Assembly (NCBI RefSeq): GCF_007197735.1 | Contig: NZ_CP041637.1 | Location: 2,141,001 to 2,205,000 of the forward strand | Reading direction: 5' to 3' | DNA length: 64,000 nucleotides | DNA from: Formosa sediminum | Lineage (GTDB): Bacteria > Bacteroidota > Bacteroidia > Flavobacteriales > Flavobacteriaceae | Part shown: positions 10,043-62,703 of the stretch, in pieces | Layout: every line of letters starts with the position of its first letter | Position numbering within the stretch: the first letter of the stretch is position 1 | Made by a program: the position numbers and the translations under genes | Notes under the pieces: model-generated | Databases searched by the model: none | Told to the model about the DNA's origin: nothing | Seen by the model: only the letters and a program-made list of their open reading frames with translations

Positions 10043-10043
10043 C

Positions 10044-27360: not shown

Positions 27361-27385
27361 ACAATAGAACTTAAGTATTTAAATT

Positions 27386-27910: not shown

Positions 27911-27978
27911 AACAAGCGTTTCTAATATTAAGAAGCGTGGGCAGCTACGATTGGTAATTTAGTAAGACAATAAAGACT

Positions 27979-28542: not shown

Positions 28543-28584
28543 GTATTGTCCATAATAATGCAATAGGAGTTGGTGATTAAATGG

Positions 28585-28592
28585 TAATTTTG
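28585..28592 (+). promoter_or_regulatory. Candidate -7 element TAATTTTG upstream of copA
   Basis: TAATTTTG matches the Bacteroidota -7 consensus and ends 18 bases before the copA ATG. No good -33 TTG at 19-21 bases is present, which would fit an activator-dependent promoter, but the call is weak. Confidence 0.4.
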
Positions 28593-28610
28593 TAGTCTAA
28601 TATAAAGAGA

Positions 28611-31394
28611 ATGAAACATATATATAACATATCTGGAATGACCTGTAATGGCTGTCGTGGCCATGTGGAGACTATATTGTCTAATGTGGAAGGCGTGACT
28701 AAAGCCGAAGTGAATTTAGAACGCGCTGAAGCGATACTTACAATGAAAACGCATATCCCCTTAGAAACATTTCAACAAGCTTTAGAAGCCGATGGCGGAC
28801 GTTATGGTATAGACCAATCGCCACGCACGCCTACAAACGAAATGGAAACAGATGGAGATGCAACGTCCTATTGTGCTTCAACTACAGCGCATGCTAAAAC
28901 ACAGACTACAACGTATCAGGTACATGGGATGACGTGTAACGGTTGTCGAGCTCATGTAGAAACGATTTTAAATCAAGTTGAAGGGGTTAAACACGCAGCA
29001 GTAGATTTAGAAACATCTGAAGCAACTATTACTGCTGAAAATCCAATACCTATAGAAACGTTTCAACATGCCTTAAAAGCCGATGGCGATACCTATACCT
29101 TGCATCCGTTAGGTACACCCAAGGCTAAATTGCCAACAAAAAAAGCTAAAGCTACTGGTGCAGGTACATATTATTGTCCTATGCATTGTGAAGGAGATAA
29201 AACGTATGATACACCTGGAGACTGCCCAGTGTGCGGGATGGATTTGGTAAAGGAACAAACAGCATCTCCCACTAAAACCCAATATACTTGCCCGATGCAT
29301 CCAGAAGTGGTGCACGATACACCTGGAGATTGTCCCATATGCGGGATGGATTTAGTCCCTATGGCACCCGAACCGTCGGCAGAAGAACACACGTATAATA
29401 CTCTGGTTAACAAATTAAAAATAGCCACTGTATTTACCATTCCAATTTTTATAATTACAATGTCTGATATGCTTCCTAATAATCCGTTATACCAAATTCT
29501 ACCACTAAAAATGTGGAATTGGGTACAGTTTGCCTTATCGATTCCGGTGGTGTTTTATGCCACGTGGATGTTTTTTGAGCGGGCTTTTAGAAGTGTAAAA
29601 ACAGGACACCTCAATATGTTTACACTTATTGGTATAGGTGCGGGTATTGCCTGGTTATTTAGTGTGTTTGGGTTGTTATTTCCAGCAGTAATTCCCACTC
29701 AGTTTAAAACAGATTCAGGTACGGTACATGTGTATTTTGAAGCTGCTACAGTAATACTTACCTTGGTATTAATGGGGCAAGTCTTAGAAGCTCGGGCACA
29801 CAGTAAAACCAATGATGCCATAAAGGCCTTATTAAATCTAGCACCAAACGAGGCCACACGTGTAGTAGATGGAAAAGATGAGGTTGTTGCAATAGACATT
29901 ATACAAGAAGGTGATCTATTACGTGTGAAGCCAGGCGGTAAAATTCCGGTAGATGGACATGTTCAAGAGGGGGTAAGTACCGTAGACGAATCTATGATTA
30001 CTGGCGAACCTGTTCCTGTAACAAAACAGCAAGGCGATGCGGTAAGTGCCGGAACAATAAACGGTAAACAATCCTTTTTAATGCGTGCAGAAAAGGTGGG
30101 TAACGATACCTTATTATCTCAAATTATAGAACTGGTAAATACTGCCAGCCGTAGTCAAGCTCCTATTCAGAAATTAGCCGATAAAATATCTGGGTATTTT
30201 GTGCCAGTAGTGGTCGGTATTGCAGTGCTAACTTTTATATTATGGGCTGTATTCGGGCCAGAGCCAAGGTATGCCTATGCGTTTGTAAATGCCATTGCTG
30301 TCCTCATTATAGCTTGTCCCTGTGCGTTAGGGTTAGCAACACCCATGTCTGTTATGGTAGGAATTGGAAAAGGTGCCCAACAGGGTGTGCTAATTAAAAA
30401 TGCAGAAGCCTTGCAGCGTTTACATGCCGTAAATACATTAATTATTGATAAAACCGGAACTATTACAGAAGGGAAACCATCGGTAGAAGCGGTTCAGAGC
30501 GTTTCTGAATCTTTAGATGAGACGACCATATTGCAATATATAGCCTCTTTAAACACACATAGTGAACACCCCCTTGCCGAAGCGACCCTAGCTTATGCCC
30601 AATCAAAATCTGTAACTCTACGTCCTGTAACCGATTTTAACGCCATATCTGGACAAGGTGTTACGGGTATAATAGATAATACATTTATGGCTTTAGGGAA
30701 TGCTAAACTTATGGAGACTACAAATGCTACGGTTCCTACAGCGTTAGAAACTACGGTAACAAAAGCCCAAAAACAAGGAAAAACAGTATCTTATTTAGCA
30801 GTGAATGGTGCTGCGGTGGGCTGTGTTATAATTACAGATAAAATAAAATTTACGAGTAAACAAACGCTTAAAACCTTACAAGATTCTGGAATAGACGTTT
30901 TAATGTTAACTGGAGACAATGAAGATACTGCCCGCGCTGTAGCCGAAGAATTAGGATTAGCCCATTATAAAGGTAGTATGTTGCCGCAAGATAAATTAGC
31001 GGAAGTAGAACGGTTGCAGGCTGAAGGTAACATTGTAGCTATGGCGGGCGATGGTGTTAATGATGCGCCTGCGTTAGCAAAAAGTAATGTGGGTATTGCT
31101 ATGGGTACTGGAACAGACGTGGCTATAGAAAGTGCAGAAATTACATTAGTAAAAGGGGATTTACATGGTATTTTAAAAGCACGTCATTTAAGTACGGCTG
31201 TCATGAAAAATATTAAACAAAACCTTTTCTTTGCTTTAGTATATAATAGCGTTGGGGTGCCCATTGCTGCAGGTATTTTATATCCCATTTTTGGGCTATT
31301 ATTATCACCAATGATTGCCGCTTTAGCAATGAGTTTTAGTTCAGTTTCTGTAATTGCAAATGCATTACGTTTACGAACGACCAACATAAATTAA
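28611..31394 (+). CDS. copA: Copper-translocating P1B-type ATPase
   Basis: A 927-residue pump that exports Cu(I)/Ag(I) across the inner membrane using ATP. The N-terminus carries two HMA domains ([17 protein letters not shown] at about 5 and [17 protein letters not shown] at about 104). Two heavy-metal-binding Cys/His modules follow ([20 protein letters not shown] at about 184 and [20 protein letters not shown] at about 224). The membrane core has the copper motif [14 protein letters not shown]. The cytoplasmic part has [27 protein letters not shown], the HP motif in [10 protein letters not shown] and [15 protein letters not shown]. Four N-terminal metal sites is rich for this family. It lies 12 bases before the DUF305 gene. 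Confidence 0.95.
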
Positions 31395-31406
31395 AATTAA
31401 AAAATT

Positions 31407-31895
31407 ATGGAACAGTTAAAGACATATTTTAAAGAGAATACATATTCACGCTTTTTTTTAATGCTTGGAGCATCCTTTATTTGCATGTATGTTACCATGT
31501 ACTTAAATACATATGCGATAGCGCATGTATACTTTAGTTTAACACGGTTTTACATGACGTGTTTAGGCATTTCTACAATGGCTATAATTATGTTGTTGTT
31601 TATGCTAAACATGTATAAGAACAAGGCTAAGAACAGTGCTATAATTATAGGGAGCATCGTGCTTTTTATGACGGCATTAACTTTGGTAAGAATGCAAAAA
31701 CCATTAGTTGGAGATTTACTGTGGTTAAGAGCAATGATTCCGCATCATTCTATTGCTATTTTAACTAGTGAACGTGCAGATATTCAAGACCCAGAAGTGA
31801 AACAATTGGCTGAAGATATAATTGAAACACAACGCAAAGAGATTGAAACTATGAAGCTTATGATTAAACGTCTTGAACAGCAACAAAATGACTAA
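31407..31895 (+). CDS. DUF305 membrane protein
   Basis: A 162-residue protein with three hydrophobic segments (about 16-38, 42-68 and 78-94), followed by a short DUF305 C-terminus. That region has LLWLRAMIPHHSIAILTSER (about 104-123), the conserved MIPHH metal-ligand-like motif, then LAEDIIETQRKEIETMKLMI. DUF305 proteins are often beside copper genes and may bind copper through Met/His; the precise role is unknown. It overlaps the CusB gene by 8 bases from ATG 31888, so the two are probably coupled. Confidence 0.82.
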   Translation: MEQLKTYFKENTYSRFFLMLGASFICMYVTMYLNTYAIAHVYFSLTRFYMTCLGISTMAIIMLLFMLNMYKNKAKNSAIIIGSIVLFMTALTLVRMQKPLVGDLLWLRAMIPHHSIAILTSERADIQDPEVKQLAEDIIETQRKEIETMKLMIKRLEQQQND

Positions 31896-33648
31896 GAATT
31901 TTTTATATCTCGGTTTAGCTTTGGTCGTGGGTATTGGCCTTGGATATTTGTTCTTTAGCCAGTCGTCGGCTACAGATTCTGAAGTATCTCACGAGCATAA
32001 TCAGGATCATTTACTAGGTGCAGAACAACAATGGACCTGTGCCATGCATCCACAAATTGTAAGAACCGAGCCTGGAGATTGCCCAATATGTGGCATGTCA
32101 CTTATTCCTCTACAGCTGGAGAGCGATCGTATCTCACCACAGCAGTTTCAATTAACAGCACATGCCGCTGCTTTGGCAAATATTGAAACGACTACAGTTG
32201 GTGAGACCTGGTCGGGTGCTGCTCAGTTACAATTGTCTGGAACTATAGCTGTAAATGAAGATGAGGTGTTTGTGCAACCTGCCCATTTTAATGGGCGTAT
32301 AGAAAAACTTTATGTCACTTCTGTAGGTCAACATATTACAAAAGGCCAGTTAGTGGCAAAAATATATTCTCCAGCCTTAATTAGTGCACAACAGGAATTA
32401 ATCACGGCTTATAAGCTACGGGCTTCGCAACCCGATTTATATCTCGCTGTACGAAAGAAGTTTAAAAATTGGATGATTCACGACACGCAATTGCAAGAGA
32501 TTGAGCATTCGGGTAGGGTTATTAATCCGTTTAATATCTATGCGCATGTCTCTGGAACAGTCTCTGAAATTACAGTAAAAGAAGGCGACCACATAATGGA
32601 TGGCAATGCAATTTTTAAAGTGGCCAATTTAAAGACGGTTTGGGCTGAATTTGATGCTTACGAAAATCAGCTTCGCGATGTGTCGGTTGGGCAGGACGTA
32701 ACAATAGCTACAAAAGCATATCCTAACCAAACGCATACGTCTAAAATTGCATTTATAGATCCTATTTTAAATGCCAACACAAGAACGGTAGCAGTACGCG
32801 TGGTTTTGAATAATACTGATCAAAAATTTAAACCAGGCATGTTTGTCTCTGGAATTATTTCTAGAGCACAACAGGAACCTTCGGAACTGTTAAGTATTCC
32901 TGCATCGGCAGTGCTATGGACAGGTAAACGGTCGGTAGTGTATTTAAAAATGCGCAACGATACACCTGTTTTTGAAATGCGCGAAATAGAACTAGGAGCA
33001 AAAGTAGGCGAAAATTACGACGTGCTAAACGGATTGCATCGTGGCGATGTTGTAGTCACACATGGTACATTTACTGTAGATGCAGCCGCACAATTACAAG
33101 GAAAGCCGTCTATGATGAATAAGCAGATGGATTTAAAATCCGATTCAATAACTGTTATTGATACCAAAATACATACGGTGCAATCTTTTGATGCTGTTCC
33201 TATAGCTTTTCAAAAAGAACTGGAAACCTTCCTATATTCCTATATTAATTTAAAAGATAAATTGGTGGCAAGCGATTTGGAATTGGCAACTAAACAGGCA
33301 AAACAGCTTTGGGAGCAATTACAAGCTATAGAGGCTACGGCTCTGTCTGCTCATCCAAAAATGCAGGAGACGTGGTTAACATTATCTCATCAAATGAAAA
33401 ATGATATGGTTGATATTCAAAATGTTAAAGCCTTGTCGGAATTGCGTTCACAATTTTCTGTATTAAGCTTAGATTTAAAACAGCTAATTGAAACTTTTGG
33501 AATTTCGGTTCAAGTGTATGTGCAATATTGCCCTATGGCTAACAAAAATAGAGGTGGATATTGGTTGAGTTTATCTGAAGATATTTTAAATCCGTATTAT
33601 GGAGATCAAATGTTGAGCTGTGGCGAAAATGATAAAATACTAGGTTAA
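31888..33648 (+). CDS. cusB: CusB-type RND periplasmic adaptor with metal-binding and DUF3347 domains
   Basis: A 586-residue protein from ATG 31888; a TTG at 31873 would add five residues. The N-terminus is one membrane helix (LYLGLALVVGIGLGYLFF). A heavy-metal-binding module follows (WTCAMHPQIVRTEPGDCPIC, about 50-69). The adaptor proper has IEKLYVTSVGQHITKGQLVA, VSGTVSEITVKEGDHIMDGN and VGQDVTIATKAYPNQ. A C-terminal DUF3347 domain starts at about 440 (LYSYINLKDKLVASDLEL) and ends QYCPMANKNRGGYWLSLSED and NPYYGDQMLSCGEND. It would deliver metal to CusA and join it to the TolC-like channel. It lies far from cusA, on the other side of copA, an uncommon order. Confidence 0.9.
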   Translation: MTKNFLYLGLALVVGIGLGYLFFSQSSATDSEVSHEHNQDHLLGAEQQWTCAMHPQIVRTEPGDCPICGMSLIPLQLESDRISPQQFQLTAHAAALANIETTTVGETWSGAAQLQLSGTIAVNEDEVFVQPAHFNGRIEKLYVTSVGQHITKGQLVAKIYSPALISAQQELITAYKLRASQPDLYLAVRKKFKNWMIHDTQLQEIEHSGRVINPFNIYAHVSGTVSEITVKEGDHIMDGNAIFKVANLKTVWAEFDAYENQLRDVSVGQDVTIATKAYPNQTHTSKIAFIDPILNANTRTVAVRVVLNNTDQKFKPGMFVSGIISRAQQEPSELLSIPASAVLWTGKRSVVYLKMRNDTPVFEMREIELGAKVGENYDVLNGLHRGDVVVTHGTFTVDAAAQLQGKPSMMNKQMDLKSDSITVIDTKIHTVQSFDAVPIAFQKELETFLYSYINLKDKLVASDLELATKQAKQLWEQLQAIEATALSAHPKMQETWLTLSHQMKNDMVDIQNVKALSELRSQFSVLSLDLKQLIETFGISVQVYVQYCPMANKNRGGYWLSLSEDILNPYYGDQMLSCGENDKILG

Positions 33649-38918: not shown

Positions 38919-39002
38919 GGAGAGGTGCCAGAGTGGTAATGGAGCAGATTGCTAATCTGTCGACGGGTAACTGTCGCCAGGGTTCGAGTCCCTGTCTCTC
39001 CG
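38919..39002 (+). tRNA. tRNA-Ser (anticodon GCT)
   Basis: 84 bases with a paired acceptor stem (ggagagg with tctctcc, one G-T pair) and discriminator G. The D region is followed by an anticodon loop ttgctaa reading AGC/AGT. A long class II variable arm (gacgg/ctgtc) and a T-loop ggttcgagtcc are present. CCA is not encoded. Confidence 0.96.
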
Positions 39003-39052
39003 CAGAAGTCTTTAAATGTAAATATCGGGAATTTAAAGATAAACATACACTT

Positions 39053-39127
39053 CGGGGTGTAGCGTAGCCCGGTTATCGCGCCGCGTTTGGGACGCGGAGG
39101 TCGCAGGTTCGAATCCTGCCACCCCGA
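39053..39127 (+). tRNA. tRNA-Pro (anticodon TGG)
   Basis: 75 bases with a perfect 7-bp acceptor stem (cggggtg/caccccg), an anticodon stem of CG pairs around loop tttggga, and T-arm caggttcgaatcctg. CCA is not encoded. It probably shares the promoter at 38855 with tRNA-Ser. The DNA directly downstream contains integrase material, so its 3' end is a likely attachment site. Confidence 0.96.
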
Positions 39128-39148
39128 CTATTTTAAAGTACAATTAGT

Positions 39149-41298: not shown

Positions 41299-42363
41299 GT
41301 GTATTCAGATTTATTAGAATGTCACAGACAACTTTCTTCTGAAGGCATACCTGTAACGGCAAAAAAGATAAAATTACGTTATTTAGGCAAAGACAAAACA
41401 TTAGAAACACTTGAAGATGTTTTAAATTATCATAAAACTGTAGAATCTAAAAAACTGCAACAAGGCACTTTAAAAAACTATGTGGCTACGGAAAAGTATT
41501 TGAAGCGTTTTTTACAACAAAAGCATAGTGTTTCAGATATTCATTTACATTGCATTGATTACTCTTTTATCATCGAGTTTGAGGATTTTCTTCGGACTTG
41601 CAAACCTCTTCGTGCATCTCAATCCTTGAGTAATAATGGGATTATGAAGCATATGGAACGTTTCCAGAAACTCATCAATATTGCGATGAAGTTTGGATGT
41701 TATAGAAACAATCCATTTAATTTATATGGTCTGAAATATGAAGATTATGACAGTGAATTTCTTGAAGTCAAAGAAATAATAAAATTAAAAAGCGTTGTTT
41801 TGTCTTCTCCAAGTTTGAAACAGACAAGAGATTTTTTTGTGTTCGCTTGTTACACAGGTTTGTCTTATATAGAAGTTCAAAAGCTAAATCGTAGTGATAT
41901 TGTAGAGGGGATTGATGGAGTATTATGGATAAATGTTAAACGTCAAAAAACAAAAACACCTGTTAGAGTGCCATTGTTATCTCAAGCATTGGAAATATTA
42001 GAATGCTATAAATCCTATCCCTGTGAGAGTAATAATTATTGTTTACTTCCTATTTTATCCAACCAAAAAGTTAATGCACATCTTAAGGATATTGCAAAAT
42101 CGGCAGGAATATATAAATATTTAACCTTTCATGTAGCGAGGCATACATTTGCCACAACCATAACATTATTAAATGATGTGCCCTTGGAAACAGTTTCGAA
42201 ATTATTGGGACATACTAAATTGTCGACCACACAAAAATACGCTAGAGTTGTTGAAAAGAAAATAAGTAAGGATATTGGGCGCTTAAAGAATGTTTTGAAT
42301 CGGCAAGAAGAATGTATATTAAAACAGCCTATAGTTAAGTCTGTTCAACTACGGATTGTTTAA
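41299..42363 (+). CDS. Tyrosine-type site-specific integrase (IntDOT-like), N-terminus without a start codon
   Basis: Annotated from GTG 41299 (354 residues). The same frame is open back to 41065 and encodes the arm-type domain there (RIDFWLKKRSIKSNGQIPIY), but with no ATG, GTG or TTG before its beginning. The SAM-like core-binding domain is about residues 30-150. The catalytic domain has FACYTGLSYIEVQKLNRSD, where Ser stands at the usual first Arg, then HVARHTFATTI, LLGHTKLSTTQKYARVVEKK and the Tyr nucleophile at Y-A-R-V. Loss of Arg I is known for IntDOT. It would integrate or excise an element, probably at the nearby tRNA-Pro. It may be inactive. Confidence 0.85.
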   Translation: MYSDLLECHRQLSSEGIPVTAKKIKLRYLGKDKTLETLEDVLNYHKTVESKKLQQGTLKNYVATEKYLKRFLQQKHSVSDIHLHCIDYSFIIEFEDFLRTCKPLRASQSLSNNGIMKHMERFQKLINIAMKFGCYRNNPFNLYGLKYEDYDSEFLEVKEIIKLKSVVLSSPSLKQTRDFFVFACYTGLSYIEVQKLNRSDIVEGIDGVLWINVKRQKTKTPVRVPLLSQALEILECYKSYPCESNNYCLLPILSNQKVNAHLKDIAKSAGIYKYLTFHVARHTFATTITLLNDVPLETVSKLLGHTKLSTTQKYARVVEKKISKDIGRLKNVLNRQEECILKQPIVKSVQLRIV

Positions 42364-43331: not shown

Positions 43332-44306
43332 ATGAAAATTAATAGAAGGGAAAAGAAATGTATAAGGTATTTAACTAATGAAATGTCTCAGGCAGATCGA
43401 GCTGTTTTTGAAATAGAGCTTGCCTTAGATCATGATTTAAAAAACCTTTATGAAAATTATAGTCTAATTTGGAAACATTATCCAATACCTGAGCAAATTG
43501 ACGATCCTAATTATGAATCAAAACAAAGTTTGTCAAAGGATTCTAGTTTCATTAAAGATTCTAAACAAAGGTGGTCCAAAAAATATATCGCTATAAGTGC
43601 TTTTGCTTTAGTTATACTAACTGTATCCGTTTTTATATATCATTCGCAAGACATTAATTATACTAACCAAATTGTAACTGAAAAAGGAGAAAGGCGATCA
43701 CTTTATCTGCCAGATAGTACCTTGGTTGTTCTAAATTCTTTAAGTGAGATACATTTTCCTAACGCATTCAATAAAACAAGAGATGTTTTTGTGAGCGGAG
43801 AAGTGTTTTTTGATGTCACGCATAATGAAGAAAAACCTTTTACAGTGCATACAACCGATTTGGATGTACAAGTGTTAGGAACCGCTTTTAATGTGAATAC
43901 CTCTTCATCAAATAAAATCATATCCTTAGAACGTGGTAAAGTGAATGTGTTATTAAAAGAGTCGAATAATCAATTAACTCTTTCTCCTAACGAACAACTT
44001 ATTTATAATAATGCCACAAACAATATTACAAAGAAAAATTTTAATGCAATAGAGGTCTTAGGCTGGAAGGATGAAATGCTTATTTTAGATAACACACCAT
44101 TTAAAGAAGCCATAAAAAAACTTAATCAGTTTTACGGAGTAACCTTTAGACTAAAAGATAAAACTCTTGAAAGTAAAAAAATAACGGGCGCATTCAAAGG
44201 ATTAGACATAAAGGGGGTTATATCCTCATTAGAATTTATTGCAAATATTACTATAGTTCCAATTCATAAAAATGAATACTTAATAATCGGAAATGATGCA
44301 AATTAG
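43332..44306 (+). CDS. FecR-family anti-sigma factor
   Basis: A 324-residue protein. The N-terminal cytoplasmic part (KKCIRYLTNEMSQADRAVFE) would bind the sigma factor. One membrane helix lies at about 86-105 (YIAISAFALVILTVSVFIYH). The periplasmic FecR domain has TEKGERRSLYLPDSTLVVLN, VFVSGEVFFDVTHNEEKPF and VLGTAFNVN. The C-terminal DUF4974 domain is at about 245-320 (LILDNTPFKEAIKKLNQFYG). It would sense the state of the TonB-dependent receptor and hold or release the sigma factor. It precedes the sigma gene and overlaps it by 14 bases, the reverse of the usual sigma-FecR order. Confidence 0.9.
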   Translation: MKINRREKKCIRYLTNEMSQADRAVFEIELALDHDLKNLYENYSLIWKHYPIPEQIDDPNYESKQSLSKDSSFIKDSKQRWSKKYIAISAFALVILTVSVFIYHSQDINYTNQIVTEKGERRSLYLPDSTLVVLNSLSEIHFPNAFNKTRDVFVSGEVFFDVTHNEEKPFTVHTTDLDVQVLGTAFNVNTSSSNKIISLERGKVNVLLKESNNQLTLSPNEQLIYNNATNNITKKNFNAIEVLGWKDEMLILDNTPFKEAIKKLNQFYGVTFRLKDKTLESKKITGAFKGLDIKGVISSLEFIANITIVPIHKNEYLIIGNDAN

Positions 44307-44877
44307 AGGAGTGAATGTAAGTAATGCTGTAACTGAAGATCTTCTTCTTTTTAAGCAAATTCAATTAGGAAACCCTAAAGCAGTAGATGTTTTGTTTAAG
44401 AAATATTACCATAGCTTATGTCGGTTCGGAATCCTTTATGAGTCTAATATTCACATTATAGAAGAAAAAGCTTCAGATGTTTTTATGATCTTATGGAAGG
44501 AAAAGCATAAACTACATACTATTAAAAATCCAAAATCATATATATACGTAATCCTAAAAAACAACCTAAGAAAGCCATGTAAAAACCACAAAATAAGACC
44601 AATACTTCATGAAGATCAATTTGAGAATCAAAATTTGTATCCAAGTATTGAAGATGAAATTATAGCTAATGAGCAGTTAGAAATCAATAAACACATCATT
44701 AGAACTATTTTAAATGAAATTCCTAAACGCACACGTCAGATCTTTGAAATGAGTAGAATAGACGGATTTAAGTATAAAGAAATTTCAGAACTCTTAGATA
44801 TAGCTCCTAAAACTGTAGAAAATCACATCGGGTTAGCTCTTAAATATATAAGTAAGGGGTTGATTACTTACAAGTAA
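44293..44877 (+). CDS. ECF RNA polymerase sigma factor
   Basis: A 194-residue sigma-70 family protein of the Bacteroidota ECF type. Region 2 is about 25-90 (ALCRF-like LCRFGILYESNIHIIEEKAS, DVFMILWKEKHKLHTIKNPK). Region 4 is about 135-190 (LNEIPKRTRQIFEMSRIDGF, YKEISELLDIAPKTVENHIG). It would turn on the SusC/SusD genes downstream when released by the FecR protein. The start is taken at ATG 44293 inside the fecR end; a GTG at 44311 preceded by AGGAG-like bases is an alternative. Confidence 0.9.
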   Translation: MMQIRGVNVSNAVTEDLLLFKQIQLGNPKAVDVLFKKYYHSLCRFGILYESNIHIIEEKASDVFMILWKEKHKLHTIKNPKSYIYVILKNNLRKPCKNHKIRPILHEDQFENQNLYPSIEDEIIANEQLEINKHIIRTILNEIPKRTRQIFEMSRIDGFKYKEISELLDIAPKTVENHIGLALKYISKGLITYK

Positions 44878-44970: not shown

Positions 44971-47900
44971 ATGAAATTTAAAAGCCTAATTATAGTTCTT
45001 GTCCTATCCATGGCAAGCAGTTTACACGCATTTTCAAGTGCTTATTTAATACCGCCTAATACAGATAGTATTAATTTGAATTTAAAGAATACCTCTTTAA
45101 GTCAAGTATTTAATCTTATAGAAAAACAGACACATATACCATTTATTTATGTGTCAAATCAGTCCTATTTATCGACTAAGATTGATTTAAATGTACATAA
45201 TGAAACTCTAGAGATTGTTCTAAATACCTTGAAAGAAAAGTCTTCTTTAGATTTTAAAATTACCGATAGCGGTATTTTGGTTAAGAAGCAGGTGGTTATT
45301 TCTAACCAACAAGAATCTCAAATTAAAGGTACTGTAAAAGACAACAATGGGTTACCTATTTTAGGAGCCAATGTTTTTGTGAAAGGTACAAATATAGGAA
45401 CATCTACAGATTATGATGGTCATTTTAAATTAACAATTCCGGCGAATATAGAGACTATTACTATAACTTATTTAGGGTATCAGAAACAGGATGTTAATAT
45501 AATTGGTCAAAACATAGTTTCTATTGTTTTATTGGAAGATGCGAATGAATTAGATGAAATATTAGTGGTGGGGTATGGCACAGAAAAACGTGAAAATATT
45601 ACAGCTGCTATTTCTTCGGTAGATCCGGATGACATTAAAACGTTGCCTAAAGCTAATGTAGAGGAAATGTTACAAGGTAGAATGCCAGGTGTCCAGGTTA
45701 TGAGTGATAATAGTCCAGGAGGAGGAACATCCATTCGTGTAAGAGGATTTAGTACGATTAATAATAATGATCCTCTTGTTGTTATTGATGGTGTTCCTAC
45801 CTCTAACGGATTAAATAGTATTAATCCTCAAGATATAGAAAGCATACAGGTCCTTAAGGATGCTGCTTCATCTTCTATCTATGGTTCACGTGCTGCTAAT
45901 GGTGTTATTGTAATTACGACTAAAAAAGGAGCTGGTAAAGATTCTTTTGAGGTTAATATAGATGGTTATGCAGGAATACAAACTGCTATTAACTTACCAA
46001 AAATGTTAAATGCGCAACAATATGGAGATTTATTATGGCAAGCATATAAGAACGATGGACAAACACCATCGCATGATATTTATGGAGATAACCCAGATCA
46101 AGCCGTAATACCAATATGGTTAAATAGTGAGGAAACACTACCAAGTAGCGATGTAAATTGGATTCAAGAAATTATGCAACCTGCTTTTGTTCAAAATTAT
46201 AATCTTTCCATCCAGAAAGGTTCAGAAAAAGGACAACATGCCTTTTCTTTAGGGTATTATGATCAAGAAGGCGTTGTGAAATATACCGGTTTTACTAGAT
46301 ATTCGGCACGTTTTAATTCAAATTATAATATTACAGATTGGTTAGCTATAGGAGAAAATTTTACAGGATCTTATACGGAAGATGTGTCTGCAACTACGAA
46401 TAGTGCTTTAGGAAGTATAATTTACAATGCGTTTCAATTTCCTTCAATAATTCCTGTAAGAGATAATAATGGAGATTTTGGAGGTAACCCCATTAACGAT
46501 ATAGGAAATCCGCTTGCCAGTCTTTACCGATCAAAAGATAATAAAGATAAAAATGTACGTGCCTTTGGTAATGTTTATGCCGAACTCAATTTTGGAGATT
46601 TTATATTTAAATCGTCCTTTGGATTAGATTATAATAATTATAATTATAGAGGGTTTTCTTCCGTATATGATGAAATTCTTTCTCAAAACACCATAAACAG
46701 CTTAAGTACTTCTAATAGTTTTAACCATCAGTTTACTTATACCAATACCATCAATTATTCTAAATCTATAGGCGGTCATAATATAGATGTATTACTAGGG
46801 CAGGAAGCTATAGAATATTATGCAGAATCTTTTTCAGCTTCTAGACAAGATTTTTTATATGAAGATCCTAATTTTTGGTATTTAAGTTATGGAACGGATA
46901 ATCAATTAAACTCGGGATCAGCGAGTGAATGGACATTAAACTCGTATTTCGGAAGGTTTAGATATAATTTTAATGAAAAGTATCTAGTTACTGCAACAGT
47001 TAGAAGAGACGGTACTTCGCGCTTAGCCAATAATAATTGGGGGACATTTCCAGCCTTTTCAGTAGGATGGCGCTTAGATAAAGAAGACTTCTTTGACTTT
47101 GGAACAGTGTTTACAAGTATGTTGCTTAGAGCAAGTTGGGGACAAACTGGTAATCAAGAGGTTCCATCTTATTCTACAGTAGATAGTTATACTAATAATA
47201 GTAGTAATAGTGATTATGCTATAGATGGCGGACAAAATTCGGTGTCGACAGGGCTTACTCAAACTAGAATTTCTAATTCAGATCTTAATTGGGAGACCAC
47301 AACACAAACCTCTATAGGTGTTGATTTAGGCTTTTTTAATAATAAATTAAACATCACCGCAGAAGTATATAAGAAGGTTACTGATGATATTTTGGTTTAT
47401 AATTCTGTACCACTAACATATGGAGGCACAAATGATGGACAGTGGATTAATGATGGTGTTATGGAGAATAAAGGATACGAACTTAATTTAAGATATAGCG
47501 ATAAAAGCCATGATTTTGGTTATGATTTAGGTCTTAATATATCTGGTTATAAAAATGAATTGACAGAACTTCACAATGTTGCTTACTTAGGGATTCCTAG
47601 TTCATCACTACATAGCGTGAATTTTGATCAAGAGGTTTCTAGAAGCGCCGTGGGGCAACCTATCGCATCTTTTTATGGCTACCGTTCTGAAGGATTGTTT
47701 AGAAGTCAAGAAGACGTTGATAGTTATGGCTTACAACCCAATGCGCAACCTGGAGATTTAAAATTTGCAGATGTGAACGGTGATGGTGAAATAAATGATG
47801 AAGATAGAACCTTTATAGGTTCTCCGCATCCCGATGTTGTTATAGGATTTAATATAAACGTTAATTACAAGAATTTTGACTTAGGTATGTTTTTTAACGC

Positions 47901-48336
47901 AAGTATTGGTAACGATATTTATAACCTAACAAAATACAAGACATACTTCTTTAACCAATCTGCATATAATAAAGACTCGGCTTTATTAGGCGCGTGGAGT
48001 ACAGAGAATCCAAATTCAGATATACCAAGATTAAGTTTGGACGATCCAAATAATAACATCAGACCTTCATCGTATTATGTTGAGGATGGCTCTTATTTAA
48101 AATTAAATAATTTACAAATTGGTTATACGCTTCCAGCAAATATTTTAAACAATTTAGGGCTCAGAATATATGCTCAAGCGAGTAATGTATTTACAATAAC
48201 AGATTATAGTGGGATGACTCCAGAAATTGGGCTTCAGAATTATTCAAGTAGCAGTAGAAACTTAGATATTGGTGTAGATCGTGGTATTTATCCTCCTTCA
48301 AGAACATTCATTTTAGGATTTAACCTTAACTTTTAA
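44971..48336 (+). CDS. SusC/RagA-type TonB-dependent receptor with STN domain
   Basis: A 1121-residue outer-membrane importer. Signal peptide MKFKSLIIVLVLSMASSLHA. The STN signalling domain is about 32-105 (LKNTSLSQVFNLIEKQTHIP). The CarboxypepD_reg domain is about 114-195 (IKGTVKDNNGLPILGANVFV). The plug has the SusC signature (ENITAAISSVDPDDIKTLPK, NVEEMLQGRMPGVQV, ADVNGDGEINDEDRTFIG later in the barrel). The TonB box region is near LDEILVVGYGTEKRE. The barrel ends with the terminal aromatic-rich strand RTFILGFNLNF. The STN domain pairs with the upstream FecR/ECF system for self-induced expression. It imports glycan pieces captured with the SusD partner. Confidence 0.95.
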   Translation: MKFKSLIIVLVLSMASSLHAFSSAYLIPPNTDSINLNLKNTSLSQVFNLIEKQTHIPFIYVSNQSYLSTKIDLNVHNETLEIVLNTLKEKSSLDFKITDSGILVKKQVVISNQQESQIKGTVKDNNGLPILGANVFVKGTNIGTSTDYDGHFKLTIPANIETITITYLGYQKQDVNIIGQNIVSIVLLEDANELDEILVVGYGTEKRENITAAISSVDPDDIKTLPKANVEEMLQGRMPGVQVMSDNSPGGGTSIRVRGFSTINNNDPLVVIDGVPTSNGLNSINPQDIESIQVLKDAASSSIYGSRAANGVIVITTKKGAGKDSFEVNIDGYAGIQTAINLPKMLNAQQYGDLLWQAYKNDGQTPSHDIYGDNPDQAVIPIWLNSEETLPSSDVNWIQEIMQPAFVQNYNLSIQKGSEKGQHAFSLGYYDQEGVVKYTGFTRYSARFNSNYNITDWLAIGENFTGSYTEDVSATTNSALGSIIYNAFQFPSIIPVRDNNGDFGGNPINDIGNPLASLYRSKDNKDKNVRAFGNVYAELNFGDFIFKSSFGLDYNNYNYRGFSSVYDEILSQNTINSLSTSNSFNHQFTYTNTINYSKSIGGHNIDVLLGQEAIEYYAESFSASRQDFLYEDPNFWYLSYGTDNQLNSGSASEWTLNSYFGRFRYNFNEKYLVTATVRRDGTSRLANNNWGTFPAFSVGWRLDKEDFFDFGTVFTSMLLRASWGQTGNQEVPSYSTVDSYTNNSSNSDYAIDGGQNSVSTGLTQTRISNSDLNWETTTQTSIGVDLGFFNNKLNITAEVYKKVTDDILVYNSVPLTYGGTNDGQWINDGVMENKGYELNLRYSDKSHDFGYDLGLNISGYKNELTELHNVAYLGIPSSSLHSVNFDQEVSRSAVGQPIASFYGYRSEGLFRSQEDVDSYGLQPNAQPGDLKFADVNGDGEINDEDRTFIGSPHPDVVIGFNINVNYKNFDLGMFFNASIGNDIYNLTKYKTYFFNQSAYNKDSALLGAWSTENPNSDIPRLSLDDPNNNIRPSSYYVEDGSYLKLNNLQIGYTLPANILNNLGLRIYAQASNVFTITDYSGMTPEIGLQNYSSSSRNLDIGVDRGIYPPSRTFILGFNLNF

Positions 48337-48348
48337 AACTAATTTACA

Positions 48349-50016
48349 ATGAAATTTAAAACATATATAGCAAAAATTATGATTGTTCCTACAGTCATAT
48401 TAAGTATTACGTCGTGTGCTAACGATTATTTAGAAGAAGTTACCTATGGAGAAGTTTCTCCTTCAGAAATGACTAGTCCAGCGAATGTAGAATTGGCAAT
48501 AATTTCAGCTTATAGCGTCTTAAATGGGCAGTTTGACGGTGCAAGTAATGCTTATAATTCACCTGCTTCTAATTGGAGTTTTGGAGATGTTGTTTCAGAC
48601 GATGCCTATAAAGGTGGTGGTGGTACTGGTGATCAAAATAATATTCACCAAATGGAGATCTTTAATACACTACCTACTACAATTGATGTTGAACGTAAAT
48701 GGATGGCATTGTATGAAGGTGTTAAAAGAGCTAATGAAGCGATGCGCTTACTTGAAGCATCTGAAGATTTTGATGATGATTTAAGAATTCAGAGAAAAGC
48801 CGAGTTACAATTTTTGCGTGGACATTTTTATTTTGAATTGAAAAAGATTTATAATCATATTCCTTATATAGATGAAACGGCAGAAACTGTAAATGACTAT
48901 GCTAAATCTAATACTGAATTTACTTCAGAAGAATTATGGAACAAAATAGAAGCCGATTTTCAAGCCGCTTATAACGTCTTGCCAACTACACAAGACGAAG
49001 TGGGTAGACCTACAAAAATTGCGGCACAAGCCTATTTAGCTAAAACGTACTTGTTTCAAGATAAATGGCAATTGGCTTATGATGCGACTACAGAAGTTCT
49101 AAATAGTAACTACGGTTTGATGGATGATTTTCAAGAATTATTCTTGCCAGAAAATGATAATAATAAAGAAGTTATTTTTGCCGTTCAACACTCTGTAAAT
49201 GATGGTCAGGCTAGTAATTATAATGGAAGTATAGGCGACCGATTATTAGCTCCAGGAGGACCTTTCTATTCTCAATATGGATTTCAAAGACCATCTCAAA
49301 ATTTAGTAAATGCTTTTAAGGTTACTTCAGAAGGTATTCCTGCACATAGTAATGAAACCCTAACCGATACTGATTTTGTAGACCCTAGATTAGATATTAC
49401 TATAGGAAGACCTGGGATTCCTTATAAAGATCTTGATATTTTGTACGATAGCAGTTGGGCAAGAGACTTAGCAACTTATGGTGAATTTAGTCCTAAGAAA
49501 AGAATTGTTTCAGCCAATTCTGAATATTTTGTAACTGTTTGGCCGTATGTAAGTGCTTTAGATTATTATATCATTAGATATGGAGAAGTTGTGTTATGGA
49601 GAGCAGAAGCCGCAGTAGAAATTGGTCAATTAGAAGAAGCAAGGTCTTTAGTAAACCAACTTAGAGATAGAGCTAAAAACTCCCAGTATGTAAAGACCTT
49701 AGATGGAAGTCAAGATGCCGCAAATTACAAGATAGCGTTGTATGCTAATGTATGGAGTAGTCAAGATGATGCTAGAGAGGCTGTGCGTTTAGAATCACGT
49801 TTAGAATTGGCTTTAGAAGGACATCGATTTTTTAACTTAGTACGTTGGGGAAATGCAGATAATGTTATCTCGGACTATCTTGAGGTTGAGAAAACCAGAA
49901 GAACCCACTTGTCTAATGCTACATTTCAAGCCGGAAAAAATGAATATTGGCCTATACCTCAGGCTTATATAGATGGTGTAACGGACGGCATGGTTACTCA
50001 AAACGACGGATATTAA
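48349..50016 (+). CDS. RagB/SusD-family nutrient-binding lipoprotein
   Basis: A 555-residue lipoprotein. The lipobox is ILSITSCANDYLEE (Cys-23). The SusD TPR-like helical part has YEGVKRANEAMRLLEASEDF, AELQFLRGHFYFELKKIYNH and GRPTKIAAQAYLAKTYLFQD. The C-terminal region has YYIIRYGEVVLWRAEAAVEI, RLELALEGHRFFNLVRWGNA and the typical ending NEYWPIPQAYIDG. It caps the SusC pore and binds the glycan at the cell surface. It starts 12 bases after susC; a terminator follows. Confidence 0.95.
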   Translation: MKFKTYIAKIMIVPTVILSITSCANDYLEEVTYGEVSPSEMTSPANVELAIISAYSVLNGQFDGASNAYNSPASNWSFGDVVSDDAYKGGGGTGDQNNIHQMEIFNTLPTTIDVERKWMALYEGVKRANEAMRLLEASEDFDDDLRIQRKAELQFLRGHFYFELKKIYNHIPYIDETAETVNDYAKSNTEFTSEELWNKIEADFQAAYNVLPTTQDEVGRPTKIAAQAYLAKTYLFQDKWQLAYDATTEVLNSNYGLMDDFQELFLPENDNNKEVIFAVQHSVNDGQASNYNGSIGDRLLAPGGPFYSQYGFQRPSQNLVNAFKVTSEGIPAHSNETLTDTDFVDPRLDITIGRPGIPYKDLDILYDSSWARDLATYGEFSPKKRIVSANSEYFVTVWPYVSALDYYIIRYGEVVLWRAEAAVEIGQLEEARSLVNQLRDRAKNSQYVKTLDGSQDAANYKIALYANVWSSQDDAREAVRLESRLELALEGHRFFNLVRWGNADNVISDYLEVEKTRRTHLSNATFQAGKNEYWPIPQAYIDGVTDGMVTQNDGY

Positions 50017-50069: not shown

Positions 50070-51314
50070 ATGAAAAAATATGTAATTATACTATGCTTGT
50101 TACTCACTGTAATAGGCTATAGCCAAGTTGCTCAAAATACTTACCCTAAAGTTTATCAAAAGCTAGCCAATAAAAATTATTATTTATTAAATGCCATAGA
50201 TCACTATCCAGCAGTAAAAAATATTTTTGAGGACGATACCGTTTTGAAAGACATTTCTAAAGTTAAGCATCAAGCTATAGTGGCCTCGCTTTTAGGTGAT
50301 TCTAAAACGATAGATGCGAAAGATCTGGTAAATCCGTATATTTTTACTGATTCTGAAATTTTAAGAATAAGTGAAAGATTAGAAGCATTATATGCTAAAT
50401 CTGAAGTGGTAAGAGAATTCGTAAAGACAGAACTTAAGCCTTCTGGAGCATATAACTTATATGAAGGTGAAGGTGATAAAAAATTATTGTCTCAAGCTTG
50501 GGCATTATGTGCTCGTGGTGTTAATCACGTTTTAAAAGTTTATGGTCAAGGTGAATCCCCTCAATATGCTGAAATTGATTCTATATCTTACAATGTAAAC
50601 AGTTCATATTATAAGCAAACCCTATTTGTATGGAGTGATCATTTGGTAGCTAATAATTTACAGGCTTTTTATTCTCAATCTACACAATTTGTTTTGTCCC
50701 TTTTATACTTTAATCACAGGGATGAAGCCGTAAGGTATGAGCCTTTAGCTACACTAGAAAATAAAAACGTAAAAGCGTATATATCGAATATTGATTTTGA
50801 ACAATACAAATATGCTTCTGTACTCGTTCTAGGAAATGGTCCTGAAAATTACAGAGATCGATTATCTGCTTTAGGAAAATTTAATATTAAGTTGGGAGCA
50901 GAAGCTTTTTTGTCAGGAGACGTTCCGCTTATTATAGTGTCAGGAGGTCATGCCCATCCGTATAGAGCTGCATATGCAGAAGCCATAGAAATGAAAAAGG
51001 AGTTGATTACACAATACAATATTCCTGAAAATTGCATTATTATTGAGCCTTACGCGAGACATACAACAACCAATTTAAGAAATGCCAGTAGGCTATTGAT
51101 TGCGTATAACGTGCCTATAGATCGGCTTTCATTAGTGGTTACTAATAATTTTCACAGTGAATACACAGGAAGTGAAATGTTTGTTAATCGTTGTTTTACA
51201 GAGTTAGGATATCAGCCAGTAACTATTAAAAAACGTTTAAATAAAACGACTCTTGAATATTTGCCCCAAAAGGAGTCCCTACAACAAAATCCTTTAGAAC
51301 CTCTAGATCCCTAA
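50070..51314 (+). CDS. ElyC/SanA/YdcF-family (DUF218) exported protein
   Basis: A 414-residue protein from ATG 50070, the frame upstream being a re-reading of susD. Signal peptide KYVIILCLLLTVIGYSQVAQ. The N-terminal 200 residues are helical and unassigned. The DUF218 Rossmann-like domain lies at about 235-385, with ASVLVLGNGPENYRDRLSAL, PLIIVSGGHAHPYRAAYAEA, IIIEPYARHTTTNLRNASRL and LSLVVTNNFHSEYTG. The family's reaction is not settled. Its partner here is the GH92 glycosidase 5 bases downstream, so a role in handling the same glycan is inferred. The signal peptide predicts a periplasmic location. Confidence 0.8.
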   Translation: MKKYVIILCLLLTVIGYSQVAQNTYPKVYQKLANKNYYLLNAIDHYPAVKNIFEDDTVLKDISKVKHQAIVASLLGDSKTIDAKDLVNPYIFTDSEILRISERLEALYAKSEVVREFVKTELKPSGAYNLYEGEGDKKLLSQAWALCARGVNHVLKVYGQGESPQYAEIDSISYNVNSSYYKQTLFVWSDHLVANNLQAFYSQSTQFVLSLLYFNHRDEAVRYEPLATLENKNVKAYISNIDFEQYKYASVLVLGNGPENYRDRLSALGKFNIKLGAEAFLSGDVPLIIVSGGHAHPYRAAYAEAIEMKKELITQYNIPENCIIIEPYARHTTTNLRNASRLLIAYNVPIDRLSLVVTNNFHSEYTGSEMFVNRCFTELGYQPVTIKKRLNKTTLEYLPQKESLQQNPLEPLDP

Positions 51315-51319
51315 TATAT

Positions 51320-53398
51320 ATGTTTAGATATCTTTTTATTATTATACTACTTGTTCTAATAACAAGTCGCTTAAAAGCTCAAGAACGTACTAGTTTGACT
51401 GGTAGACCGGTAGATGCGGTTAATGTTTTTTTAGGTACCTCTGGAGATCATGGTCAATTATCTCCTGCGGCATCATCTCCTTTTAATATGATGAGTATTG
51501 GTCCACAAACCAAACCACATATACATACTGGTTATGATTATTATGCAAAAGTGTTTGAAGGGTTTACCCATACACGCATTGAAGGAGTAGGATGCACTGG
51601 AAGCGGAGGTAATATTTTAGTGAAACCCATTTTAGGAGAAGATCTCACAACAGAGCTTTACAAAAAACAGGATTATGCTTATCCTGGATTTTATAGTGTA
51701 TCTTTTGAGAATGGTATTAAGGCTGAAATGTCAGTAGATACTAATTTTGGCATTCATAAGTACGAATTTCCAAATGAAGAAAGTAGTTTGTTCCTTGATT
51801 TATCTTATGCTTTTGCAGATCGATTTGTAGCTGAAAAACATACCTTACATGCCAATGTTATCACAGGATATATTGATACAAAAACAACCTGTGATGTTGG
51901 GGTGTATCGTATTTATTATGCCATTGAAATACGTAATGTTTCTGAGCTTAAACCGAGCGGAAATCATGGGCTTATAGCTGTCCGTGAAAATAAGCATAAA
52001 CCTATGGAAGTCCGTGTTGGATTTTCTTCAGTAGCTGAAGATTATGCTTTAAAAAAAATAGAAAATTCATCCATAAGTTTAGAAACTTTAAAAGAACATA
52101 CGATTACGAATTGGAATCAGTTGCTGAGTCGTGTAGAGGTCAAGGGGGAGAAAGATCGTGAAGCTCTTTTCTATTCTTTATTGTATAGAGGACTTCAATC
52201 TCCATATCTTATTTCAGAAACAGATGGTGTTTATCGTGCCATAGATGGATCTAGACAAACATCAGATTTTCCTGCTTATAATGGTTGGGCTATTTGGGAT
52301 AACTATAGAGAGCAGTTGCCTATGTTATCACTATTGTATCAAGATACATTTGCATCAATAGCAAAGTCTATTGCTAATTTATACCGTTACGGCAAGCAAA
52401 GTTGGGCTACAATGCACGAGCCTTCACCTACTGTTAGGACAGAACATGCCATTGTAGTGTTGCTAGATGCTTATAACAAAGGATATGCTGTTAATTTTGA
52501 AGCTATACAAGAAGCATTAATTACAGAAGTTGAACAACTTGATTATAGTGCACCAGATAAAGCCTTAGAATCCTCTTACGATACTTGGGCAATGTCGGAA
52601 ATCTTAAAAATTACTGGAGATACTTCGCTAAGTGAGAACTATGCACTTAAAGCTTTAAAGTATAAATCCTATTGGAATACAGATTTTGCAGATCTATCAA
52701 AAGACGATGTAGATAAAATGCAAGCGCGCGGTCTGTATCAAGGTACGATTTGGCAATACAGATGGTTTGTACCATTTGATGTTGATGGATTAAAAACTTT
52801 AATAGGAGGAGAAGATCTGTTTGTAAAACAATTAAATCAATTTTTTGCAGATTATAATTACAATCATGCAAATCAACCCGATTTACAAGTTCCAGGACTT
52901 TATAATGCTACCAAACAACCTTGGAAATCTCAAAAGCTTTTTAGAAATATTATGTTAGATACCGTGGTGCAAACTTATTTTAATAATAATAGTAAAGGTG
53001 TAGATCCCTATATCGGTAAAATATATAATAATAGACCAAAAGCCTATTTACGTACTATGGACGACGATGCAGGTACCATGTCGTCTTGGTTTGTGATGAG
53101 AAGTATTGGACTTTCTCCTGCTAATATTGGTGATCCGATTTATTATTTAACAGCTCCAATATTTAAATCTGTAAAAATAAATATGGGAGATAGTAAAATT
53201 TTAAATATAGAAGTAAAGCATTATAATAAAGATCATTTTTACATTCAAACCGTTTATTTTAATGGGAAGAAATTAGAAAGAAATTGGTTAACTCAAAAGG
53301 AACTTACTCAAGGTGGTCAACTCTTAATAGAAACAGGTCCGAAACCCAATAAAAGTTTTGGAATTCATAATCAATGGATCTCTAGTCTAAAAGAATGA
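51320..53398 (+). CDS. GH92-family glycosidase, divergent, with Gln at the catalytic-acid position
   Basis: A 692-residue secreted protein (signal peptide FRYLFIIILLVLITSRLKAQ). The GH92 layout is complete. The N-terminal beta domain has VNVFLGTSGDHGQLSPAASS and GFTHTRIEGVGCTGSGGNIL. The alpha/alpha barrel has FYSLLYRGLQSPYLI, NGWAIWDNYREQLPMLSLLY and MQARGLYQGTIWQYRW. Residues 581-585 read DDDAG, keeping the acidic pair used as base. The usual G-N-E-P-x-x-H-x-P segment is ANQPDLQVP, placing Gln at 519 where the acid Glu is expected. GH92 enzymes are calcium-dependent inverting alpha-mannosidases. Loss of the acid suggests a phosphodiester substrate or an inactive protein. Shorter than the usual 740-760 residues. 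Confidence 0.88.
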   Translation: MFRYLFIIILLVLITSRLKAQERTSLTGRPVDAVNVFLGTSGDHGQLSPAASSPFNMMSIGPQTKPHIHTGYDYYAKVFEGFTHTRIEGVGCTGSGGNILVKPILGEDLTTELYKKQDYAYPGFYSVSFENGIKAEMSVDTNFGIHKYEFPNEESSLFLDLSYAFADRFVAEKHTLHANVITGYIDTKTTCDVGVYRIYYAIEIRNVSELKPSGNHGLIAVRENKHKPMEVRVGFSSVAEDYALKKIENSSISLETLKEHTITNWNQLLSRVEVKGEKDREALFYSLLYRGLQSPYLISETDGVYRAIDGSRQTSDFPAYNGWAIWDNYREQLPMLSLLYQDTFASIAKSIANLYRYGKQSWATMHEPSPTVRTEHAIVVLLDAYNKGYAVNFEAIQEALITEVEQLDYSAPDKALESSYDTWAMSEILKITGDTSLSENYALKALKYKSYWNTDFADLSKDDVDKMQARGLYQGTIWQYRWFVPFDVDGLKTLIGGEDLFVKQLNQFFADYNYNHANQPDLQVPGLYNATKQPWKSQKLFRNIMLDTVVQTYFNNNSKGVDPYIGKIYNNRPKAYLRTMDDDAGTMSSWFVMRSIGLSPANIGDPIYYLTAPIFKSVKINMGDSKILNIEVKHYNKDHFYIQTVYFNGKKLERNWLTQKELTQGGQLLIETGPKPNKSFGIHNQWISSLKE

Positions 53399-61848: not shown

Positions 61849-62703
61849 CTATGCAGCTAGTTTAAGGTTATATATGTCTAATTCAAATTCTCTTATAGTT
61901 TTATTTCCTAAAAAGGAATGTCTTCTTCTATTATTGTACCAGGTTTCTATCCATCCAAAGATGGATAACTCCGCTTCAGATCTCAACTTATAATTGTGCC
62001 TATAAACCCATTCTACCTTTAAAGATTTAAAGAACGATTCTGCAACTGCGTTATCCCAGCAATTACCTTTTCTGCTCATAGATTGGTTTACTAAGCCTTT
62101 GTAACTTTTAATTAAAGAGGTGAACTTATGGCTGGCATATTGTATACCTCGGTCAGAATGAAAAATTAAAGACTGGGTTAAAGTTTTTTTCTTTATAGCC
62201 ATATGCCAAGCTTTAATAATAGTATCCTCTGTGCTTAGGTTATCGCTTAGAGCCCACCCAACAACTTTACGGTTAAACAAATCAATAATGACAGTAAAAT
62301 ATAACCAGCCTTGCTTGGTTTTAATATAGGTAATATCACTTACCCAAACTTGATTTTGTCTGCTTACTTCAAAGTTTTGGTTTAATAAATTAGGTGCTAT
62401 AGGATAATTATGCTTACTATCTGTGGTTGCTCTAAACTTACGTTTTCGTTTTTCAAACAAATAATTAGCACTCATAATACGCGCCACTCTGGGCTTTGAT
62501 ATTTTATAGCCTAATGTCTCCAGTTCTGTTTTTATTCTAGGAGAACCATAGCTTTGAAAACTATCCTTAAATATACCTTTAATAAGCGCAGTTACCTTTT
62601 GATTTTCTAACCATAATTTACTTGGTCCTGATTGCAACCAATGGTAATAACCGATTTTGCTTACCTTTAATATTTGACACATCGTCTCGACATGAAATCT
62701 CAT
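61849..62703 (-). CDS. IS3-family transposase OrfB (DDE integrase domain)
   Basis: A 284-residue catalytic part. The HTH_21-like start has VETMCQILKVSKIGYYHWLQ. The DDE core (rve) has VWVSDITYIKTKQGWLYFTV (first Asp), IFHSDRGIQYASHKF (second Asp) and NAVAESFFKSLKVEW (Glu); all three acidic residues are present. The same frame is open upstream to about 62741 (RQEKYRFIKQHL), overlapping orfA, as expected for -1 programmed frameshifting in IS3 elements. Annotated start ATG 62703 is therefore only the first Met in the frame. Confidence 0.92.
   Translation of the reverse strand: MRFHVETMCQILKVSKIGYYHWLQSGPSKLWLENQKVTALIKGIFKDSFQSYGSPRIKTELETLGYKISKPRVARIMSANYLFEKRKRKFRATTDSKHNYPIAPNLLNQNFEVSRQNQVWVSDITYIKTKQGWLYFTVIIDLFNRKVVGWALSDNLSTEDTIIKAWHMAIKKKTLTQSLIFHSDRGIQYASHKFTSLIKSYKGLVNQSMSRKGNCWDNAVAESFFKSLKVEWVYRHNYKLRSEAELSIFGWIETWYNNRRRHSFLGNKTIREFELDIYNLKLAA

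Follow-up and report, generated by a model that had tools for sequence, protein, structure and literature searches.

The window considered here is a stretch of 64,000 nucleotides from Formosa sediminum (contig NZ_CP041637.1, positions 2,141,001 to 2,205,000), and the gene of interest within it, at 51320..53398 on the forward strand, is an intact open reading frame (ORF) for a 692-residue enzyme of glycoside hydrolase family 92 (GH92), which carries glutamine at the position of the catalytic acid, as does CcMan5 from Cellulosimicrobium cellulans. The product matches Pfam PF07971 (1.7e-80) and PF17678 (1.1e-32), both over the curated cut-off, as well as TIGR01180, and is the sole GH92 match in the 3.93-Mb genome. 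The gene closes a run on the forward strand that encodes, in order, a FecR-type anti-sigma factor (43332..44306; PF04773, PF16344), an extracytoplasmic function (ECF)-type sigma factor (44293..44877; Sigma70_r4_2), a SusC-type TonB-dependent receptor (44971..48336; Plug, CarbopepD_reg_2), a SusD-type binding lipoprotein (48349..50016; SusD_RagB), a two-domain DUF218 protein (50070..51314; PF02698) and the GH92 enzyme itself. With adjacent SusC and SusD genes, plus a degradative enzyme, the run has the composition of a SusC/SusD polysaccharide-utilisation locus.

In inverting GH92 enzymes a general base activates water and a general acid protonates the leaving oxygen (PMC5930347, PMC10167667). 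PMC5930347 assigns both residues for BT3130 (acid Glu535, base Asp637) and BT3965 (acid Glu531, base Asp633), and the acid, Glu533, for BT3990. By chain counts, the published acid is the E of TEGNAWQY (BT3130), TEGFTMQY (BT3965) and TEGNSWHY (BT3990), and the published base the final D of an NDD motif (BT3130 and BT3965); the numbering offset is constant for each chain (+16 for BT3130, 0 for BT3965 and +19 for BT3990), and Cys393 and His584/Glu585 of BT3990 agree with it. On alignment, the acid column is occupied in the window protein by Gln474 (GLYQGTIWQY; codon 52739..52741, forward strand), opposite Glu535 of BT3130, Glu533 of BT3990 and Gln536 of the CcMan5 chain (PDB 2xsg). The base column is occupied by Asp583, opposite Asp637 of BT3130, as the last of three consecutive aspartates (Asp581-Asp583; codons 53060..53068, forward strand). 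The window protein thus has the general-base Asp of the family and the Gln typical of a CcMan5-type enzyme, and lacks the general-acid Glu, as does CcMan5, though the title of its PDB entry names GH92. The title of another entry, that for EfMan-I E494Q (PDB 7fe2), appeared among the Foldseek matches.

A contig scan gave 175 relatives; the 80 best of these, together with the window protein and four more, make up 85 clade sequences, 50% to 96% identical to the window protein. Near-copies are counted in this total: the window protein and L051 are 96% identical, their genes having 29 synonymous and 26 non-synonymous codon differences over 692, and the pairs L003/L095 and L004/L124, each with contigs of one length, look like duplicate genomes. 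A broken copy, L062, was carried with X in the alignment; this Flavobacterium hiemivividum gene (10001-12327) has four in-frame stops in its matched stretch.

Gln474 is conserved in all 85 clade sequences, whereas the acid column is Glu in all 44 other GH92s of the first alignment, so the exchange is no chance substitution; Asp581, Asp582 and Asp583 are likewise invariant in the clade. The sequence-only reading of this stretch had been right that an acid Glu had given way to Gln, and the ANQPDLQ segment (residues 517-523) and the three aspartates that it cited are both present, but it had assigned the exchange to the wrong residue, Gln519 (codon 52874..52876, forward strand) of the GN-E/Q-P motif. 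Gln519 is not diagnostic, because the alpha-1,2-mannosidase BT3990 also has Gln there (HGNQPIQ), as does BT2199. Within the clade the position is Gln in 46 of 85 sequences and Glu in 39, a mixture that, together with the Gln of BT3990 and BT2199, rules it out as the acid. The alignment with characterised GH92s and CcMan5 which that reading had proposed as a check instead pairs Gln474 with Gln536.

The clade is discrete. In a set of 296 Bacteroidota genomes, GH92 matches at 1e-20 are present in 92, and clade members occur in four, the window genome included; after the window protein itself, these are 66, 54 and 51% identical to it, and the next match, outside the clade, is at 29% (208 bits versus 767). 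Two of 59 relatives have a clade GH92, the source itself and one congener (79%). The kept relatives are, by title, mostly from Bacteroidota, with one metagenome-assembled genome labelled Thalassovita.

In a tree of 54 rows, built with the acid columns removed and one long row (L137) left out, 25 clade rows form one group with CcMan5 and sequences from Streptomyces, Novosphingobium (two), Persicobacter and Catenovulum, with support of 100/99 and presence in 100% of 200 bootstrap trees. The window enzyme therefore lies on the same branch as CcMan5. Owing to the length or unusual composition of several rows, the group as a whole is more secure than the placements inside it. The Catenovulum sequence has Glu at the acid column and branches with Novosphingobium (99/95). 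The fewest acid-column changes on a quick tree number two, which are best read as one putative Glu-to-Gln event plus one reversal. This Glu-bearing copy within the otherwise acid-less group is encoded on a Catenovulum adriaticum plasmid (L132, 8537-10663); a GH28 gene adjoins it, an inositol oxygenase gene lies a few kb away, and no DUF218 match was found beside it.

The members of this group (hereafter the Q group) share more than the acid-column residue. In an architecture alignment comprising the 25 clade rows, the six others of the Q group and 24 ordinary GH92s, Arg373 and Glu375 of an Arg-x-Glu motif (codons 52436..52444, forward strand) are both present in 31/31 Q-group rows and in 0/24 ordinary ones. 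The loop before Asn518 has 8-17 residues in the Q group and 23-33 in ordinary GH92s, while the stretch before the base is longer, at 34-44 residues compared with 12-13. Asp581 is found in all 31 Q-group rows and in only one of the 24 ordinary ones, that of BT3990; position 519, by contrast, is Glu in 23 of the 24 and mixed inside the Q group. His584-Glu585 are +1 residues of BT3990, and its Cys393 is a subsite-boundary residue, as described in PMC5930347. By chain count, the BT3990 counterpart of the loop before Asn518 holds His584-Glu585; the Arg373 column falls two after that of Cys393, and the Glu375 column four after.

The AlphaFold2 model of the window GH92 has a predicted local distance difference test score (pLDDT) of 87.9. 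Among the Foldseek matches listed, it is closest to CcMan5 (TMq 0.87 and 0.86, compared with 0.82 or less for other GH92 chains). The likeness to CcMan5 (PDB 2xsg / 4aq0) thus extends over the acid-column Gln, the VRxE motif, a shorter +1 loop, the pre-base insert, the tree group and the best fold match; however, the two proteins are only 24-25% identical over the fold alignment, the loop and insert of CcMan5 are longer, and it has Glu rather than Gln at the GNxP place. With the ordinary enzymes BT3990, BT3130, BT3965 and BT2199 the window protein shares the fold, the base Asp and the Pfam domains, but BT3990, BT3130 and BT3965 differ in having the acid Glu and a long +1 loop, and in lacking Arg373/Glu375. 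More distant fold matches were to GH94 phosphorylases; a phosphorylase reading was set aside, since retention of the base with loss of the acid is the opposite of what would be expected.

The genes around Q-type enzymes also differ from those around ordinary GH92s. Clustering of neighbours across 81 loci, the window included, gave SusC in 61, SusD in 59 and DUF218 in 45. A profile search over the full flanks found DUF218 in 44 of the 80 fetched clade loci and in none of 40 ordinary GH92 loci; within 6 kb the counts are 31/80 and 0/40 (Fisher 3.5e-7, which is indicative only, as the loci are related). The order SusC-SusD-DUF218-GH92 occurs in 23 of the 81 loci, DUF218 follows GH92 in L089, L092 and L096, and eight loci have the order DUF218-c7-SusC-SusD-GH92-GDPD; such differing gene orders favour a functional link between DUF218 and GH92. 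GDPD genes are found over the full flanks of 15/80 clade loci, DUF218 being present in every one of the 15, and of 1/40 ordinary loci (13/80 and 1/40 within 6 kb). At least one of the families DUF218, GDPD, alkaline phosphatase, purple acid phosphatase and EEP is represented in 48/80 clade loci and in 3/40 ordinary ones. The c7 cluster, comprising proteins of ~290 residues (e.g. L090, 3837-4709, and in 13 more loci), is present in 14 of the 80 clade loci; two members scanned, that of L090 and the L184 homologue, have no Pfam match.

Close neighbours, up to two per locus with the DUF218, SusD and GH92 clusters excluded, were also assigned to Pfam families. On the clade side the scan covered 64 of 77 close non-DUF218 neighbours, of which 12 are GDPD proteins; the 13 others (two each from L068, L075, L076, L077 and L079, one each from L086, L091 and L125) include none of the GDPD cluster. 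On the ordinary side, 66 neighbours include Asparaginase_2 (13), GH125 (3), GH47 (2) and GH20 (2), and neither GDPD nor DUF218 is one of the best 25 of 37 families; from their families, the neighbours of the 40 ordinary loci look like those of N-glycan degradation. Single cases in the clade are alkaline phosphatase genes by L080 and L078 (same cluster), a purple acid phosphatase gene by L083, PIG-L near L124, EEP near L114 and GH125 by L128.

The DUF218 partner in the window matches PF02698 at 1.2e-11 (45.1 bits, cut-off 27.6), and so belongs to that family. It has a signal-peptide-like start, a helical N-terminal domain and a C-terminal DUF218 domain; its mechanical ORF begins at 49947, inside the SusD gene, and the true start is likely the ATG at 50070. 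Its first PDB fold match is YdcF (probability 1.00, with a weak E of 0.018), and none was obtained at E 0.001; searching PDB sequences with the DUF218 profile gave only three matches (E 0.09 to 0.8), which were taken as chance. Like ElyC, SanA and YdcF the partner has a C-terminal DUF218 domain, but it differs from ElyC and SanA in its own helical N-terminal domain and in its placement in a SusC/SusD locus. A Thr-His-Glu triad has been proposed for SanA, which like ElyC is described as anchored in the inner membrane (PMC12176290); ElyC has been linked to phosphoglyceride-linked enterobacterial common antigen (ECA) (PMC8609368). Elsewhere, the window genome has one further DUF218 gene and two GDPD genes.

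The association of DUF218 with Q-type GH92 is confined neither to the clade nor to one phylum. On two Novosphingobium plasmids and in Persicobacter, the gene immediately upstream of the Q-type GH92 encodes a two-domain DUF218 protein; the Persicobacter run is SusC-SusD-DUF218-GH92-PI-PLC-C1. Nor is the two-domain DUF218 protein confined to GH92 loci: in the 296 Bacteroidota genomes it is present in five, three of these without a clade GH92, while two genomes with a clade GH92 (G080 and G138) gave no DUF218 match in the same search. The three loci without clade GH92 comprise SusC-SusD-DUF218 (L183), DUF218-c7-SusC-SusD-GDPD (L184), and DUF218 with an alkaline-phosphatase-like match ~7 kb off and large ORFs that match neither the SusC nor the SusD profile (L185). 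On sphingomonad plasmids (L190, 7122-11807; L192, 7092-11816) a two-domain DUF218 gene lies between those for a TonB-dependent receptor and an annotated nuclease. The latter has neither a Pfam nor a PDB match; its His/Asp/Glu spacing is, in our estimation, reminiscent of zinc phospholipase C / S1-P1 nucleases. Among the literature matches listed, no description was found of an acid-less GH92 from Bacteroidota or of a GH92-DUF218 pair.

Retention of the base together with loss of the acid should favour substrates whose leaving group needs no proton. From the residue exchange, the architecture, the tree grouping, the locus and its recurrence we infer that the window GH92 is, on balance, probably an enzyme of the CcMan5 group that would cleave mannose off a mannosyl-phosphodiester (Man-alpha-1-P-X) or an activated alpha-mannoside closely resembling one. 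In such a reaction, Asp583 would act as the base, activating water; Gln474 would stand in place of the acid Glu at the phosphate-leaving site, the Glu having presumably become Gln because a departing phosphate needs no protonation; and Arg373, as placed by its column, together with the opened +1 pocket, may hold the phosphate. The enzyme would be periplasmic or on the cell surface and would work alongside the SusC/SusD importer and the DUF218 protein; the latter may handle the phosphorylated remainder or a neighbouring phosphodiester. The original paper on CcMan5 reportedly takes Gln at the acid position to reflect a phosphodiester substrate. The substrate of CcMan5 is given in one introductory sentence of PMC5930347 as the mannose-phosphate-mannose linkage. 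Ca2+ dependence and inversion are GH92 family properties (PMC5930347, PMC10167667) and would, by analogy, be expected of the window enzyme. The proposal of the sequence-only reading that the protein is a CcMan5-like enzyme for phospho-glycans, although it rested on the wrong residue, is consistent with the Gln474/Gln536 alignment, the tree support of 100/99, the best fold match and the phosphodiesterase neighbours of some relatives.

Several observations weigh against cleavage of a mannosyl-phosphodiester. Glu375 could serve as a replacement acid; 36 of the 80 clade loci have no DUF218 in the available stretch, for only part of which short flanks (<9 kb in 17/80 loci) can account; a GH3 gene, not a phosphodiesterase gene, directly follows the Novosphingobium GH92; and the CcMan5-like locus of Streptomyces has no DUF218 or GDPD match. 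Alkaline phosphatase is not enriched (2/80 Q-type and 2/40 ordinary loci) and was dropped as a locus marker. Several clade loci have a rhamnosidase, sulfatase, 3-keto-disaccharide hydrolase or chondroitinase-B-type gene nearby and, because some loci lack DUF218 and adjoin such unrelated enzymes, substrates probably differ among subclades.

A different type of phosphate-containing substrate is possible, though rather unlikely, i.e. a mannosyl-inositol phosphate such as phosphatidylinositol mannoside, the head group of a fungal or plant inositol-phospho-glycolipid, or a glycosylphosphatidylinositol (GPI)-like glycan. Catalysis would then be substrate-assisted, no enzyme acid being needed even for an ordinary O-glycoside since a phosphate of the substrate itself, adjacent to the glycosidic oxygen, would give the proton. 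The PI-PLC-C1 gene directly after the Persicobacter GH92, the GDPD genes of the clade, the PIG-L gene near L124 and, close to the Catenovulum copy, the genes for inositol oxygenase and sugar-phosphate isomerase/epimerase would fit such a substrate. However, the inositol genes adjoin the sole copy with Glu, PIG-L and PI-PLC each occur only once, and CcMan5, the one enzyme of the group with a stated substrate, acts on the mannose-phosphate-mannose link (PMC5930347).

A reading of the window protein as an ordinary alpha-mannosidase that uses a different residue as its acid seems improbable. No other Glu is found at the acid position in the sequence alignment; the most likely substitute is the nearby Glu375, which is specific to the Q group and lies on a segment bordering the -1/+1 sites, four columns past the subsite-boundary residue of BT3990. 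Its invariance in the group is consistent with such a role, but the Catenovulum enzyme keeps both Glu375 and the acid Glu, so in that enzyme Glu375 does not make the acid superfluous, and CcMan5 has Glu375 yet is described as a phosphodiester enzyme (PMC5930347).

It is more doubtful still that the protein binds mannosyl ligands without cutting, serving the locus as a sensor or in a lectin-like way. Without the acid, ordinary mannosides should no longer be cleaved efficiently, and the SusC/SusD and FecR/sigma genes make this an uptake and sensing locus; by contrast, Asp583, Asp581 and most listed pocket positions are invariant in the 85 sequences, a base would be superfluous for binding, so its invariance makes a purely binding protein less likely, and CcMan5, with the same exchange, is described as active (PMC5930347).

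A part in yeast phosphomannan degradation, as suggested by the sequence-only reading and by the precedent of CcMan5 (PMC5930347), is highly unlikely and was ruled unsupported: there are no GH76 or GH125 matches and a single GH92 in the 3.93-Mb genome, in a search that did not include GH99 and GH38, and the locus proteins scanned include no further glycosidase, whereas the operon neighbours of ordinary GH92s elsewhere do include glycan-degrading families (Asparaginase_2, GH125, GH47). A further point counted in favour of such a part was that GH92 enzymes are common in mannan loci.

Putative mannosyl-phosphodiester cleavage by the Q-type GH92, taken with the DUF218 loci that lack it, raises the more tentative proposal, to which we give less than even weight, that these loci represent a widespread, undescribed nutrient system of Bacteroidota and sphingomonads. 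This would combine a TonB-dependent receptor, a two-domain DUF218 protein and an interchangeable phosphodiester-cutting enzyme (acid-less GH92, GDPD, PI-PLC-C1 or the nuclease-like protein), with DUF218 acting catabolically on sugar-phosphate or glycosyl-phosphodiester products. Such a system would provide a biochemical handle on the ElyC/SanA family, and the recurrent DUF218 partner, from a family known through envelope phenotypes, would become testable as an enzyme. If mannosyl-phosphodiesters are indeed the substrates, acid-less GH92 would extend beyond one actinobacterial example to a branch carried by many Bacteroidota and some sphingomonads, and would be tied to uptake of phosphate-linked sugar, which might supply carbon and phosphorus. 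Catenovulum, whose copy has Glu, provides a natural control for loss of the acid.

Directly upstream of the run in the window is a gene for a phage-type tyrosine integrase with a SAM-like domain (41299-42363), itself preceded by tRNA-Ser (38919-39003) and tRNA-Pro (39053-39128) genes; the FecR-sigma-SusCD-DUF218-GH92 locus may lie on a mobile island. PADLOC gave no match for seven window proteins. Elsewhere in the window, 22371-33648 is a metal-efflux-like block encoding an AcrB-type resistance-nodulation-division (RND) pump, an outer-membrane efflux protein, a heavy-metal P-type ATPase and a HlyD/CusB-type adaptor, and at 61849-62703 there is a transposase-like ORF, which we take to resemble an IS3-type orfB.

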